This document shows, one piece after another, positions 55,447 through 62,120 of a DNA stretch of 64,000 nucleotides. A program made the translations under genes and the position numbers. Origin of the DNA: Methanospirillaceae archaeon. Its GTDB lineage: Archaea; Halobacteriota; Methanomicrobia; Methanomicrobiales; Methanospirillaceae. The stretch spans positions 62,001-126,000 of the forward strand of contig JAFGOM010000109.1 in NCBI GenBank assembly GCA_016926505.1, given 5' to 3'. The notes under the pieces were generated by a model that saw nothing but the letters and a program-made list of their open reading frames with translations, had not been told where the DNA came from and did no database searches. The stretch's first letter is position 1; every line of letters begins with the position of its first letter.

Positions 55447-56352
55447 CTATTTGCCCAGGGGAAAGTGTTCCCGGTATACCTGTCTGCGTTCATCAAGGTC
55501 GGTGTGAAGATAGACCTCTGTCGTTCGTATTGATGTGTGGCCAAGATTTTCCTGAACTACCCGCAGGTTTTTTGATCTTCGATACAGTTCACTGGCATAA
55601 CTATGGCGTATCGTATGAGGGGTTATCCCGGGAGGGGCATACATCGTAAAAATGTGCTGAACGGTTCGTGGGGAGAGTGGTTTGTCCTGCTGCCCGATAA
55701 AAACCGGACCAAACAATCTCTTCCCGATAAATTGGTCCAGTTCAGCCAGCGTTTCTGTATCTATAAAAACCACGCGGATTTTACCGCCTTTTCCTACAAT
55801 GCGTATTGTCTGCTCTTCAAAATCAATATCCTGTATCTGTATGGCACAGAGTTCAGAAACCCTGACCCCGGTAGCATAGATGGTTTGAAAAATTAACCGA
55901 TCCCGGGGATCTTTGATGGTTGAAAGGAGCCGGATGACCTGGCTGTGTTTGAGATATGTGATCTCATGGTGTTTCACTTTTGGACGATCAAAACCGGGAA
56001 CCGGATTTGCCAAAACGATCTCCTGCATGGAAAGAAACCGGTAAAATGAGCTGAGGGTGGAGAGGATCCGGTTCAATGTGGTAGATCGGTAGGAAAAAAC
56101 GGAGGTAAGAAAGGTCATATATTCGCTGATCTCTTTTGAGCTGATACAAACATCGGCCTGTAACCGAAGTGTCTCTCCGTCCTTCCATGCGGTTTTAAGG
56201 TCATTTTTATCGTTTGTACGGGACAACCAGATATAATGTCCAAACCTGACCAGAGTCTGTTCATAACTTGCAAGGGTTTTGGAAGAATAATTCCTCATCC
56301 GGAGATACTGGATATACCGGGGAATCCATTCTGAAAAATATTCATATCCCAT
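55447..56352 (-). CDS. Tyrosine recombinase, XerA/XerC type
   Basis: The 301-residue protein has a SAM-like N-terminal DNA-binding domain (Y-L-R-M-R-N-Y-S-S-K-T-L) and a catalytic domain with the Arg in A-T-G-V-R-V-S-E-L, H-x-x-R in T-P-H-T-I-R-H-S-Y-A, the Lys in G-K-G-G-K, the second His in L-G-H-T-S-I and the nucleophile Tyr in T-E-V-Y-L-H-T. Length matches XerA, which resolves chromosome dimers in archaea. No phage or integron genes flank it, so a housekeeping Xer role is likely. Confidence 0.92.
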   Translation of the reverse strand: MGYEYFSEWIPRYIQYLRMRNYSSKTLASYEQTLVRFGHYIWLSRTNDKNDLKTAWKDGETLRLQADVCISSKEISEYMTFLTSVFSYRSTTLNRILSTLSSFYRFLSMQEIVLANPVPGFDRPKVKHHEITYLKHSQVIRLLSTIKDPRDRLIFQTIYATGVRVSELCAIQIQDIDFEEQTIRIVGKGGKIRVVFIDTETLAELDQFIGKRLFGPVFIGQQDKPLSPRTVQHIFTMYAPPGITPHTIRHSYASELYRRSKNLRVVQENLGHTSIRTTEVYLHTDLDERRQVYREHFPLGK

Positions 56353-56485: not shown

Positions 56486-57148
56486 ATGGTCATGAGTTAT
56501 ACCCGATTCATCGCATATATCACCCACGAGATCAAATCATACTATGACAAGACGATGCGTTCACATGATCCAACAAAGTATCACAAGTTCAAGAAGGTAG
56601 ATGGGGCTTCCTATGAAAAGGTTAACCAGTTCTTACGAAAAAGAACATTTATCACTGCAAGAGAGTGGGCGATCTCCCGGCTCTGTGCAGATTTTCAGAC
56701 TTCATCAGGTTCTGAGATGACATTTATCGGTCAGCATTTGCCAGAACTCGTTCCGTTTATGACTGATACCTATACCCCGCAGGCAGTTAACCAGGCGCGG
56801 CATTCCTTTAAAAAGAAGGTCAATAAATCCGGTGCTACCTTTTTATACGGTGCCATGTGTGGATTTTACACTCCTGAAGAACTTGATGATCTCCTTTTTC
56901 AGGCCAGTGAAGTGGCACGGTTCCTTCTTGAAGTTGAGAGTACTGATCTGAATGTTGATGAAGAGATTGAGATAGAGGATAGGGTAACTGATATCATGAG
57001 ACAGGTCGCTGAGACATCGGCCCGGCTGCTTTCTGTTCGTGAGGAACAGCAAAGGGAGAAGAGACAGAAAGCCATGCAAAAAAAAGGAAATGATACAGAA
57101 GCTACTATCACAGACGGACAGTTGGATGGTGAAGAAGATGTCTGTTAA
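56486..57148 (+). CDS. DUF5806-like archaeal protein
   Basis: The 220-residue soluble protein is mostly helical, with K-K-V-D-G-A-S-Y-E-K-V-N and A-R-E-W-A-I-S-R-L-C-A-D-F as the most distinctive parts, and a charged coiled-coil C-terminus (residues 175-205). It resembles a euryarchaeal family known as DUF5806. Its end overlaps the glmM start by 11 bases, so the two are coupled. The function is unknown; the second ATG (56492) is an equally good start. Confidence 0.65.
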   Translation: MVMSYTRFIAYITHEIKSYYDKTMRSHDPTKYHKFKKVDGASYEKVNQFLRKRTFITAREWAISRLCADFQTSSGSEMTFIGQHLPELVPFMTDTYTPQAVNQARHSFKKKVNKSGATFLYGAMCGFYTPEELDDLLFQASEVARFLLEVESTDLNVDEEIEIEDRVTDIMRQVAETSARLLSVREEQQREKRQKAMQKKGNDTEATITDGQLDGEEDVC

Positions 57149-58520
57149 ACAGGAAAAACAACTATTTGGAACGAACGGTATCAGGGGGATAATCGGCAGG
57201 GATATGACTCCGGAACTGGCACACCGCATGGGATTGGCTGTTGGAACCATGCGTCCCGGAATCATCGCAGTCGGAAGGGATACAAGGACATCAGGTCCTT
57301 CCCTTGTTGCAGCAGTTACATCAGGATTACTGGCAACAGGATGTACAGTTGTTGACTGTGGTATCGTTCCGATTCCTGCATTGCAGTTCTCAATACGGGA
57401 TCTGTATGATGCCGGGATTATGATAACCGCTTCTCATAATCCTCCTGAATATAATGGTATTAAGGTAATTGATGGGGACGGGACTGAGATGGGTGATGAA
57501 GAAGCCATCAGGCTCGAATATATGATATTTCATCTCGATTATAACCCGGTCTCGTGGCAAATGATGGGTACAATCAGGCAGGATACCGGGGTAGCAGATA
57601 GGTACGTAAAAGCCATTGTAGAATCATTCCCCCAAGCAATCGGTTCAGGGATAAAAGTAGCGATCGATGCAGGTTCCGGTGCTGCATATCAGACAACCGC
57701 CCGAATTTTAAAAGAACTTGGTTCTGAGGTACTGACATTAAATACCCGGCCTGATGGAACATTTCCTGCGAGAAATCCTGAACCTGATAAAGGAAACCTG
57801 ATGCCACTTGCTGAACTGGTAACTCAGGTTCAGGCATCATTTGGAGTAGCTCATGACGGTGATGCAGACCGTGCCGTTTTTGTTGATGACAAAGGAGAAT
57901 ATGTCGAAGAAAATCAGGAATTTGCCCTGATAGAGGATGTAATTTGTGGCAGAAATGAAAAACCGGGAATTATTGTCACCCCGGTCAGTACCTCACGTCT
58001 TGCAGATCATGTTGCATCCCGCCATCATTGTTCGGTCTATTATACGCCGGTTGGTAGTATCTATGTTGCACGGACCATGCGATCCCTTTTGCAGGAAGGA
58101 AAAACCGTAATTTTTGGGGGAGAAGGGAATGGGGGTCTTATTTATCCACAGCACCAGTTCTGCCGGGATGGCGGAATGACCGCCGCAATGATGCTATTTC
58201 TGGTATCTTCCCGGAAAAAACCGGTATCTGAACTCCTCCTGGATCTTCCTTCTTCCTCAATGATAAAAAAGAAGGTTCATACTCCGGAAACAAAACGGTT
58301 GCTTTCTTTTATTCTGGATCAGTATCGTCATGAAAAAAATATTACCATTGACGGAATACGTATCGAAAGAGATGATTCCTGGGCATTAATCCGCCCTTCC
58401 GGTACTGAGCCGTTTGTCAGGGTGTATGTTGAAGCGTTTCATAACAAGACAGCCTTATCTTTTTGGGAAGAGATACAGTCAGTAATAATAAAAGTAATCC
58501 CCGATTGTGTAATAACCTGA
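57138..58520 (+). CDS. glmM: Phosphoglucosamine/phosphohexose mutase
   Basis: The 460-residue enzyme of the alpha-D-phosphohexomutase family has G-T-N-G-I-R-G near the start, the phospho-serine loop T-A-S-H-N-P, the metal loop D-G-D-A-D-R, the sugar loop G-G-E-G-N-G-G and the phosphate loop R-P-S-G-T-E-P. The GEGNGG form agrees with glucosamine/mannose specificity. ATG 57138 has GGTGA six bases upstream; longer forms in frame are not needed. It supplies GlcN-1-P for surface glycans. Confidence 0.9.
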   Translation: MSVKQEKQLFGTNGIRGIIGRDMTPELAHRMGLAVGTMRPGIIAVGRDTRTSGPSLVAAVTSGLLATGCTVVDCGIVPIPALQFSIRDLYDAGIMITASHNPPEYNGIKVIDGDGTEMGDEEAIRLEYMIFHLDYNPVSWQMMGTIRQDTGVADRYVKAIVESFPQAIGSGIKVAIDAGSGAAYQTTARILKELGSEVLTLNTRPDGTFPARNPEPDKGNLMPLAELVTQVQASFGVAHDGDADRAVFVDDKGEYVEENQEFALIEDVICGRNEKPGIIVTPVSTSRLADHVASRHHCSVYYTPVGSIYVARTMRSLLQEGKTVIFGGEGNGGLIYPQHQFCRDGGMTAAMMLFLVSSRKKPVSELLLDLPSSSMIKKKVHTPETKRLLSFILDQYRHEKNITIDGIRIERDDSWALIRPSGTEPFVRVYVEAFHNKTALSFWEEIQSVIIKVIPDCVIT

Positions 58521-58615: not shown

Positions 58616-59629
58616 CTATAAATCTCTCTTCCGGTGACGTAACGTATCAGATAAGAGAGGGGTTTGAAGAATCCATTCCTTTTCTTCCTGAAATGATGCA
58701 ATAAATCCTTCGATCTGTGATTCAATGACTGACTGGTGTATCGAGTGATATACAACAGTAAGAATTCTTTTAATCAGATGATCTGACAGGATACACCGGT
58801 TTTTACTCATCTCATAGTCATGAGGATCGACACCTGATATTATCAGGGGAATCAGAAAACTGTCTATCATGGCTATCTTGTTTATATTAGCAAAATCCTG
58901 TGCAAGTCCCCATTTCCCTTTTGAGAGGATAGAAATATCAGGATCAAGAAATGCACCAATCAGATTAACATTACATAAACCGGTAAGTATAGCATACCCA
59001 AATCCCAGTATGGTCTGAATAAGTTCTTTGAAAACCGGTTCGGATGTCTCATCCTGCTGGTAACGCGTCATATTGATGTACCGTACCAGGATCTCGTAAT
59101 ACATATCAGTAACAAGTCGTTCTATCCGCCGGATCTCATCCATAGTGATGAGAAACGAGATCTCATGCAGGCTCTGATGAAGGATATCAAGTTCTCCGGA
59201 ATATAAAAACCCCCTTTCAATCTGGTTATCCCATTTCTCAATTGTCAGTATCCTGTTCTTTGTGATATGTTTTACCATAATGACTGCATTTGTAAAAGGG
59301 GGTGTGTTCTTCTGATACTCCTGCAGACTGTGATCAACCTGATGATGAAAGGGTCTTACTGTCGCAATCGGGGTTCCATCAGATTTAAAGAACGTAATTG
59401 TTATTCCTGCTTCAATAAGTGATGAAATTGCTGTTGTCTGGATGGTGTGCCCGCCAAGAATGAGCAGGTGATGAAGATCCCGATAGAGGAGTACCGATTC
59501 ATGTCCTTTTCTATGAATAATGAGACTTCGGGGTGTAGCCTTGATATGTGACCCGTAACCTGCGATGACATGCCATCCTGCCCTTAGCGCTTCAATTTTC
59601 TGATAATTTTTCTTCTGTGAATCTGAAAT
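58616..59629 (-). CDS. Solitary Cas1 homologue with degenerate active site
   Basis: The only ATG-started frame (from 59278) is N-terminally truncated; the frame remains open to 59635 and the extra 117 residues are a normal Cas1 beta domain (A-G-Y-G-S-H-I-K-A-T, L-I-L-G-G-H-T-I-Q-T-T, F-F-K-S-D-G-T-P). The C-terminal helical domain has I-E-R (Glu170), L-G-F-G-Y-A-I-L-T-G, F-L-D-P-D-I and Q-D-F-A-N. The catalytic His is Ser236, the first Asp is kept (Asp245) and the second acidic residue is Asn248. ATT 59629 lies four bases after GGGGTGATC (59642-59634); no ATG, GTG or TTG is available. No cas2, cas4 or repeat array is near. It is either a non-integrase Cas1 or a decaying relic. Confidence 0.85.
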   Translation of the reverse strand: MSDSQKKNYQKIEALRAGWHVIAGYGSHIKATPRSLIIHRKGHESVLLYRDLHHLLILGGHTIQTTAISSLIEAGITITFFKSDGTPIATVRPFHHQVDHSLQEYQKNTPPFTNAVIMVKHITKNRILTIEKWDNQIERGFLYSGELDILHQSLHEISFLITMDEIRRIERLVTDMYYEILVRYINMTRYQQDETSEPVFKELIQTILGFGYAILTGLCNVNLIGAFLDPDISILSKGKWGLAQDFANINKIAMIDSFLIPLIISGVDPHDYEMSKNRCILSDHLIKRILTVVYHSIHQSVIESQIEGFIASFQEEKEWILQTPLLSDTLRHRKRDL

Positions 59630-59765
59630 ATCAGATCACCCCATTTTTCTGTACTATATGACGGGATTGGTTTTATCTCTCGTTGTTTCCGTTCTGCTGT
59701 TTTGGATAGGTATTTCCTGATTGGTATCCGAAAATAATGAATACTCAGCCATTTAATAAAAAATC

Positions 59766-59981
59766 ATGTTACAGGAACGGTACATTTACGCATATCTCTC
59801 TGGAGCATCATTTATTTTTGCATGTATCTTTCTCTATCTGGGCTTTACCAGTGAAAAACCAGAAGATTTGATGAATATGATGATCGGTGCATTAATCTGC
59901 CTGATACTAACCGGACTCTCGGTTTTATTTCTCATTACCAGTTCAAAAAGACAACGCCAGGAGAAAATTACCAAAATTTAA
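59766..59981 (+). CDS. Small two-helix membrane protein
   Basis: A 71-residue protein with two hydrophobic helices (about 9-26 and 38-57) joined by a short charged turn (S-E-K-P-E-D), ending in a basic tail (K-R-Q-R-Q-E-K). It is divergent from the cas1 gene. A TATA-like tttaataaaa (59752-59761) lies only a few bases before the ATG, so the start may need revision. Its function is unknown. Confidence 0.55.
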   Translation: MLQERYIYAYLSGASFIFACIFLYLGFTSEKPEDLMNMMIGALICLILTGLSVLFLITSSKRQRQEKITKI

Positions 59982-60177: not shown

Positions 60178-61794
<1,617 letters not shown>

Positions 61795-61799
61795 TCACA

Positions 61800-62072
61800 T
61801 TATTCATATTTGGCAACGATATTCTTAAACTCAACAATAACAAACTCTTCCTTCTCAAAATCGACCTCTTCCTGGCTGTATCCTCCGTAAATAATACGGT
61901 CGCCGGGTTTGAGAGGGAGCGGTTTGCCGTCTTCAAAGGTTCCTACTGCAATAACATCACCCTGCTTTTTCTTCTCTTTAGCAGATTCCGGGATGTAAAT
62001 TCCACCTTTAGTCTTTTCCGGTTCTTTGTATGGTTTAATTAAAACACGTTCGCCAATAGGCTGGATTTTCAT
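61800..62072 (-). CDS. groES: Co-chaperonin GroES
   Basis: The 90-residue lid protein has R-V-L-I-K-P, the mobile loop (K-T-K-G-G-I-Y-I-P) and G-D-V-I-A-V-G, P-G-D-R-I-I-Y-G. ATG 62072 follows AGGTGA by five bases and is preferred to the GTG at 62081. It is the first gene of the groESL operon. A TATA-like TATATATAGAAG lies at 62132-62121 on the minus strand. Confidence 0.94.
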   Translation of the reverse strand: MKIQPIGERVLIKPYKEPEKTKGGIYIPESAKEKKKQGDVIAVGTFEDGKPLPLKPGDRIIYGGYSQEEVDFEKEEFVIVEFKNIVAKYE

Positions 62073-62120
62073 ACTGATCACCTAAAGTTCTTTTCTGAAC
62101 CATCATATTATTGATTATTA

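Follow-up and report, generated by a model that had tools for sequence, protein, structure and literature searches.

A Cas1-solo group 1 gene with a substituted active site and a putative ATT start codon in a Methanospirillaceae archaeon

Cas1 is the hallmark integrase of CRISPR, in which it relies on Glu, His and Asp metal ligands and works with Cas2 at the array. Some cas1 genes stand alone, and those known as Cas1-solo group 1 are reportedly described by Makarova et al. (2013). In the parts of Krupovic et al. (2014, PMC4046053) available to us, group 1 is exclusive to Methanomicrobiales, shows no evidence of horizontal transfer and has a full active site in no member, a description repeated in PMC9939771. 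According to the same source, all four catalytic residues are present in casposases (Cas1-solo group 2), which reside in mobile elements alongside PolB (PMC4046053). Here we analyse a cas1 gene on the minus strand of a 64,000-nt stretch of a Methanospirillaceae genome (the window). It shares with group 1, as described in the available text, a stand-alone position, a Methanomicrobiales host, vertical inheritance and an incomplete catalytic set (E-S-D-N), and the main finding is therefore already known in kind; the window copy differs in that it lacks a standard start codon and that its arginine motif is reversed (DETSEP). The Cas1-solo lineage that the original prediction had suggested, and the idea that selection maintains a Cas1 fold which no longer integrates, were right and are both already covered by the available parts of PMC4046053. 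The start, the DETSEP motif, the order-wide scale and the selection data go beyond the description of group 1 given there, and order-wide core status, recurrent non-standard starts and charge reversal are useful additions to a known family.

The minus strand from 59635 to 58616 reads as an uninterrupted frame of 339 codons. Its first ATG lies at 59278, with no ATG, GTG or TTG upstream in frame, and the 119 codons preceding that ATG supply the rest of the Cas1 N-terminal beta domain. The translated frame matches Pfam Cas_Cas1 over nearly the entire profile (residues 23-293, profile positions 2-279 of 283, E=4.6e-30), exceeds the cut-off of NCBIfam TIGR00287 and matches Cas1 alone among the PADLOC models, which bears out the claim that a full-length Cas1 continues past the first ATG. 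GC contents at codon positions 1, 2 and 3 are 0.53, 0.40 and 0.36 in the extension and 0.49, 0.29 and 0.40 in the remainder, coding-like in both halves. Profile alignment of the window protein to A. fulgidus Cas1 (4n06) gives E=3e-32. Its AlphaFold model (pLDDT 82.8, pTM 0.75) was built from only seven sequences, namely the window protein and six relatives, and the closest PDB structures are those of Cas1 or casposases, so that the structure check proposed for 58616-59635 returned a predicted Cas1 fold. On the strength of the open frame, the profile matches, the order-wide orthologues and the predicted fold, we annotate a cas1-solo (group 1) coding sequence of 337 amino acids plus stop at 58616..59629 (minus strand), counted from a proposed ATT.

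Residues are numbered here over the 339 codons, so that E170, S236, D245 and N248 of the original prediction, counted from ATT 59629, become E172, S238, D247 and N250. All four fall on the catalytic positions of Cas1 in the profile alignment to 4n06. As predicted, the Glu (E172, 59120..59122; E. coli E141) and one Asp (D247, 58895..58897; E. coli D218) are kept, the His has become Ser (S238, 58922..58924; E. coli H208) and the second acid Asn (N250, 58886..58888; E. coli D221; all minus strand), leaving two of the three metal ligands replaced. Across the order, the Glu position is mostly His and otherwise S, Y, F, A, Q, N, D or E; the His position is occupied by H, S, N, R, T, K, F, Y or A; and the last catalytic position holds D, E, N or A. 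The sole unchanging catalytic position is D247, invariant in 57 alignable rows. While the metal ligands drift freely, about 40 other positions are fixed across the family, with near-invariance at W21, G26, H30, H56, H63, E148, R170, M178-E181 (MYYE) and C281; selection therefore does not preserve the metal chemistry. Orthologues with intact His and Asp and an ATG start, named beforehand as a sign of error or decay confined to this genome, turned up only to a degree. A standard start is the rule among orthologues, and H and D/E are retained in many of them, but the catalytic Glu is missing from most, and a single compared row (L064, E-H-D-E) carries a suitable residue, acid or His, at each of the four positions. 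The E-S-D-N pattern of the window is close to the DNDN and ENDN of a Methanospirillum-like genus (g12, which we take to be Methanospirillum), where the His is lost too and the last position is likewise Asn, and the tree groups the window copy with this clade (support 98/88). The altered site, being common to the sister clade, is therefore inherited and no fresh accident.

A contig scan gave six relatives, with Methanoregula, Methanolinea and Methanoregulaceae among the names, none of them above about 39% identity. An orthologue is present in 58 of 61 relatives, and a search with a 41-row profile found the gene in 194 of 199 Methanomicrobiales genomes, including 131 of the 132 of good quality. 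The one good-quality genome without it (G084) represents an assembly gap or a true loss. In a phylum-level sample, scores range from 326 to 470 bits for the 58 order members; the best other match reaches 159 bits and is the only one outside the order with an E-value below 1e-40. The proposed search of relatives for the same locus revealed shared synteny. Phosphoglucomutase (37 loci), DUF5806 (35) and acylphosphatase (35) genes recur downstream of the orthologues, and the window retains the first two, as a convergent glmM-like phosphoglucomutase/phosphomannomutase gene (57138..58520, plus strand, start inferred) and a DUF5806 gene (56486..57148, plus strand). Because the genes flanking cas1-solo loci are mostly convergent or divergent, operon neighbours give no clue to a partner. 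The window gene is almost certainly a syntenic orthologue within the order-wide family, so that the Cas1 described as hidden was hidden in its start codon alone and not as a gene. Its host order, its synteny, the gap in scores and the state of its active site together point to membership in Cas1-solo group 1, as a single-copy, vertically inherited gene at its ancestral locus beside glmM and DUF5806. With casposases (6opm), the window gene has in common a Cas1 fold outside CRISPR, but it occupies a fixed chromosomal locus and lacks the full set of four catalytic residues. The named neighbour clusters at orthologue loci are not of the PolB/HNH kind.

The source genome, a draft in 121 contigs, encodes a single Cas1. 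Neither Cas2 nor DevR/Cas7 was found in the whole genome, and another contig carries a weak, short Cas4/RecB-like frame (L141, G000:C5:13821-14165; 144 amino acids, E=1.2e-5). The search for arrays covered the window and found no CRISPR-like direct repeats in its 64,000 nt, in agreement with the earlier statement that no cas2 or array is nearby and with the separation of group 1 from both. Like the CRISPR-associated Cas1 proteins of A. fulgidus (4n06) and T. maritima (4xtk), with which it can be aligned over most of its length, the window protein has a two-domain fold; unlike them, it is acidic, has lost metal ligands (S238, N250) and has no Cas2 in its genome or array in the window. A degraded remnant of a lost CRISPR-Cas system would fit the lack of other cas adaptation genes in the genome, but the same locus and sequence family recur throughout the order, and synteny and family score refute this origin, leaving it a negligible probability.

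For most close orthologue pairs, dN/dS lies between 0.08 and 0.2, and three higher values (0.21-0.46) are confined to very close genomes within one genus. The dN/dS check thus shows, on close pairs of relatives, that the family is under purifying selection, and this, together with an altered site inherited with the sister clade, disfavours the very recent relic that had also been considered. A genus-level search for congeners of the source genome found none. Relative to glmM, the divergence of the window copy falls inside the family range, and its end branch is among the longest of the tree.

The window copy departs from the family at 5 of 40 near-invariant columns (R195D, R196E, D204E, N207Q and G235S), more than any other row. 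All five departures lie within 195-235 (chance 1.9e-4) and four of them within 195-207 (2.7e-4). Where the order has RRTxRP, the window reads DETSEP (residues 195-200; 59036..59053, minus strand), so that the sister-clade RRTSRP is converted into a local charge reversal that includes position 199, Arg in 81% of the family and Glu here. The region also carries a one-codon in-frame insertion, and a downstream D..N has become E..Q with unchanged spacing, a pair of conservative changes. The T, S and P of the motif still line up with those of the sister clade, and a compensated local frameshift at 195-200 was rejected on that ground. Judged from the alignment, the changes across 195-235 look like a local change under selection, not scattered decay. 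The same evidence bears on the possibility that, in this one genome, a core gene has recently turned into a pseudogene, its start lost and its conserved residues going, with no stop yet acquired. Such decay would account for the missing ATG, GTG or TTG at just the right place, for the record number of departures and for the long branch; moreover, a frame of 339-codon length stays open in 20% of neutral simulations at 0.05 substitutions per site and in 4% at 0.1, and an open frame may therefore persist through recent decay. We nevertheless consider a pseudogene unlikely, since the departures are clustered, two of them conservative and accompanied by an insertion that keeps the frame, 35 of the 40 invariant columns are retained, there is no stop or frameshift, few frames would survive the longer decay, and the ATT discussed below is placed by a Shine-Dalgarno match.

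In the profile alignment, DETSEP corresponds to the Cas1 region R..RPP.DPvN, which, to judge from Cas1 biology, probably faces DNA. The family as a whole is acidic (median pI 6.2, net charge -5; window protein pI 6.5, net charge -4), in comparison with pI 8.1-9.1 for four Cas1-like frames at other matches in genomes of the same order, a small control. As to the DNA-binding protein that the original prediction had considered, the low net charge and the reversed arginine loop would argue against DNA binding of the canonical Cas1 type. They also weigh on the idea that nuclease or integrase activity persists through an active site rebuilt around E172 and D247. The invariance of D247, the retention of E172 and the His, His and Asp/Glu of many orthologues, which could bind metal, are compatible with such a site, but from genus to genus the metal-ligand positions change freely, two of the ligands are missing from the window copy, which also has acids in place of three arginines of the adjacent motif, and the family is more acidic than the Cas1-like frames, all of which makes a rebuilt site very unlikely.

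The description of the start region in the original prediction was accurate: no ATG, GTG or TTG lies in the extension, an ATT is present at 59629, and the ATG at 59644 (minus strand) is followed by GGG and then an in-frame TGA. The proposed ATT start (59627..59629, minus strand) lies 4 nt downstream of a Shine-Dalgarno-like GGTGATC (59634..59640, minus strand), a 7-nt match to AGGAGGTGATC. Only 3 of the 2817 ATT sites in the window, this one included, have a 7-nt match so placed, and strong Shine-Dalgarno sequences are seen at few window genes. The spacing between GGTGATC and ATT resembles that in the P. abyssi aEF1A mRNA, GGAGGUGAUUUAAAUG (PMC6237735), a paper that also mentions aIF1 as a factor discriminating against starts of the non-canonical kind. 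An alternative ATT without a Shine-Dalgarno sequence (59594..59596, minus strand) occurs 7 codons before the conserved Trp, at the position of most orthologue starts. Within 12 codons of that Trp, 56 of 57 compared orthologues have an ATG, GTG or TTG and the window has none; the usual start lies 3-12 codons before the Trp, and ATT 59629 18 codons before it. In the search of relatives for the same start, nearly all compared orthologues proved to start in the standard way, and several genomes of genus g8 have no good standard start. In three of these (L098, L105 and L114) none is within reach, and two with identical sequences (L102 and L104) have just a GTG, upstream of an AAAGGAG..ATC arrangement; all five carry a Shine-Dalgarno-like AAGGAG or GAGGAG followed by a candidate ATC. 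The g8 genes with this candidate have dN/dS of 0.08-0.13, and genes without a good standard start are therefore functional. ATT 59629 best explains the missing start codon; translation of the window gene from an ATT is probable, and non-standard initiation, as read from these sequences, seems to have had two or more separate origins. It is quite unlikely that a base error near the start masks an ordinary start codon in an otherwise normal gene: the draft state of the assembly and the standard starts of nearly all compared orthologues would speak for such an error, but none is obvious, the Shine-Dalgarno sequence fits together with the ATT as one site, the lack of a good standard start recurs independently in several genomes of genus g8, and the residue changes would be left unexplained.

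Taken together, our results favour, with a probability of roughly 0.6, an AUU-started, non-catalytic Cas1-fold housekeeping protein encoded at the ancestral Cas1-solo locus. The 337-amino-acid protein would be translated from AUU 59629, positioned by the GGTGATC sequence, and the weak start codon would hold its level low. With two of its three metal ligands missing, the protein would be unable to carry out metal-dependent Cas1 chemistry. Its fold would have been retained for a housekeeping task that is neither enzymatic nor tied to CRISPR, in which the protein most likely binds or scaffolds by way of the conserved N-terminal-domain surface and the MYYE and RR..D..N helices. That this role is related to nucleic acids, as opposed to other binding, has in our view slightly less than even odds. 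A more ambitious reading, doubtful as a whole, would see in group 1 a (near-)essential, non-catalytic housekeeping protein of the entire order that is under the control of an upstream element of its own, is kept at a low level by AUU or AUC starts in at least two lineages and, in the genus of the window, has had its arginine motif selected to become acidic as DNA gave way to a different ligand. An inactive copy of the hallmark CRISPR integrase at a fixed place throughout an order suggests recruitment of the fold for another job, and, the gene being universal in the order, its role should be accessible by knocking it out in a single cultured member. The AUU and AUC candidates offer natural test cases for archaeal non-AUG initiation.

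Roughly half of 73 cas1-solo loci (L122, L049, L055, L046, L074 and others), across several families and with differing divergent neighbours, share a conserved upstream element, AAACGATGNATTNATGTA, which lies 70-100 nt ahead of the codon for the conserved Trp. In two genomes with a perfect copy of this 15-mer, its sole perfect match is at the cas1-solo gene. The element is absent from the window and from the Methanospirillum-like clade. A scan for bacterial-type promoters, which does not apply to archaea, found no more than expected by chance. Divergent from the window gene and upstream of it lies a 71-amino-acid frame with hydrophobic stretches (59766-59981, plus strand) that has no match in Pfam, NCBIfam or PADLOC. 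Elsewhere in the window, 55447-56352 (minus strand) encodes a tyrosine recombinase of the phage integrase family (E=5e-34), possibly an archaeal Xer protein, and frames at 60178-62081 (minus strand) resemble, by sequence, bacterial-type GroEL and GroES in an archaeon.
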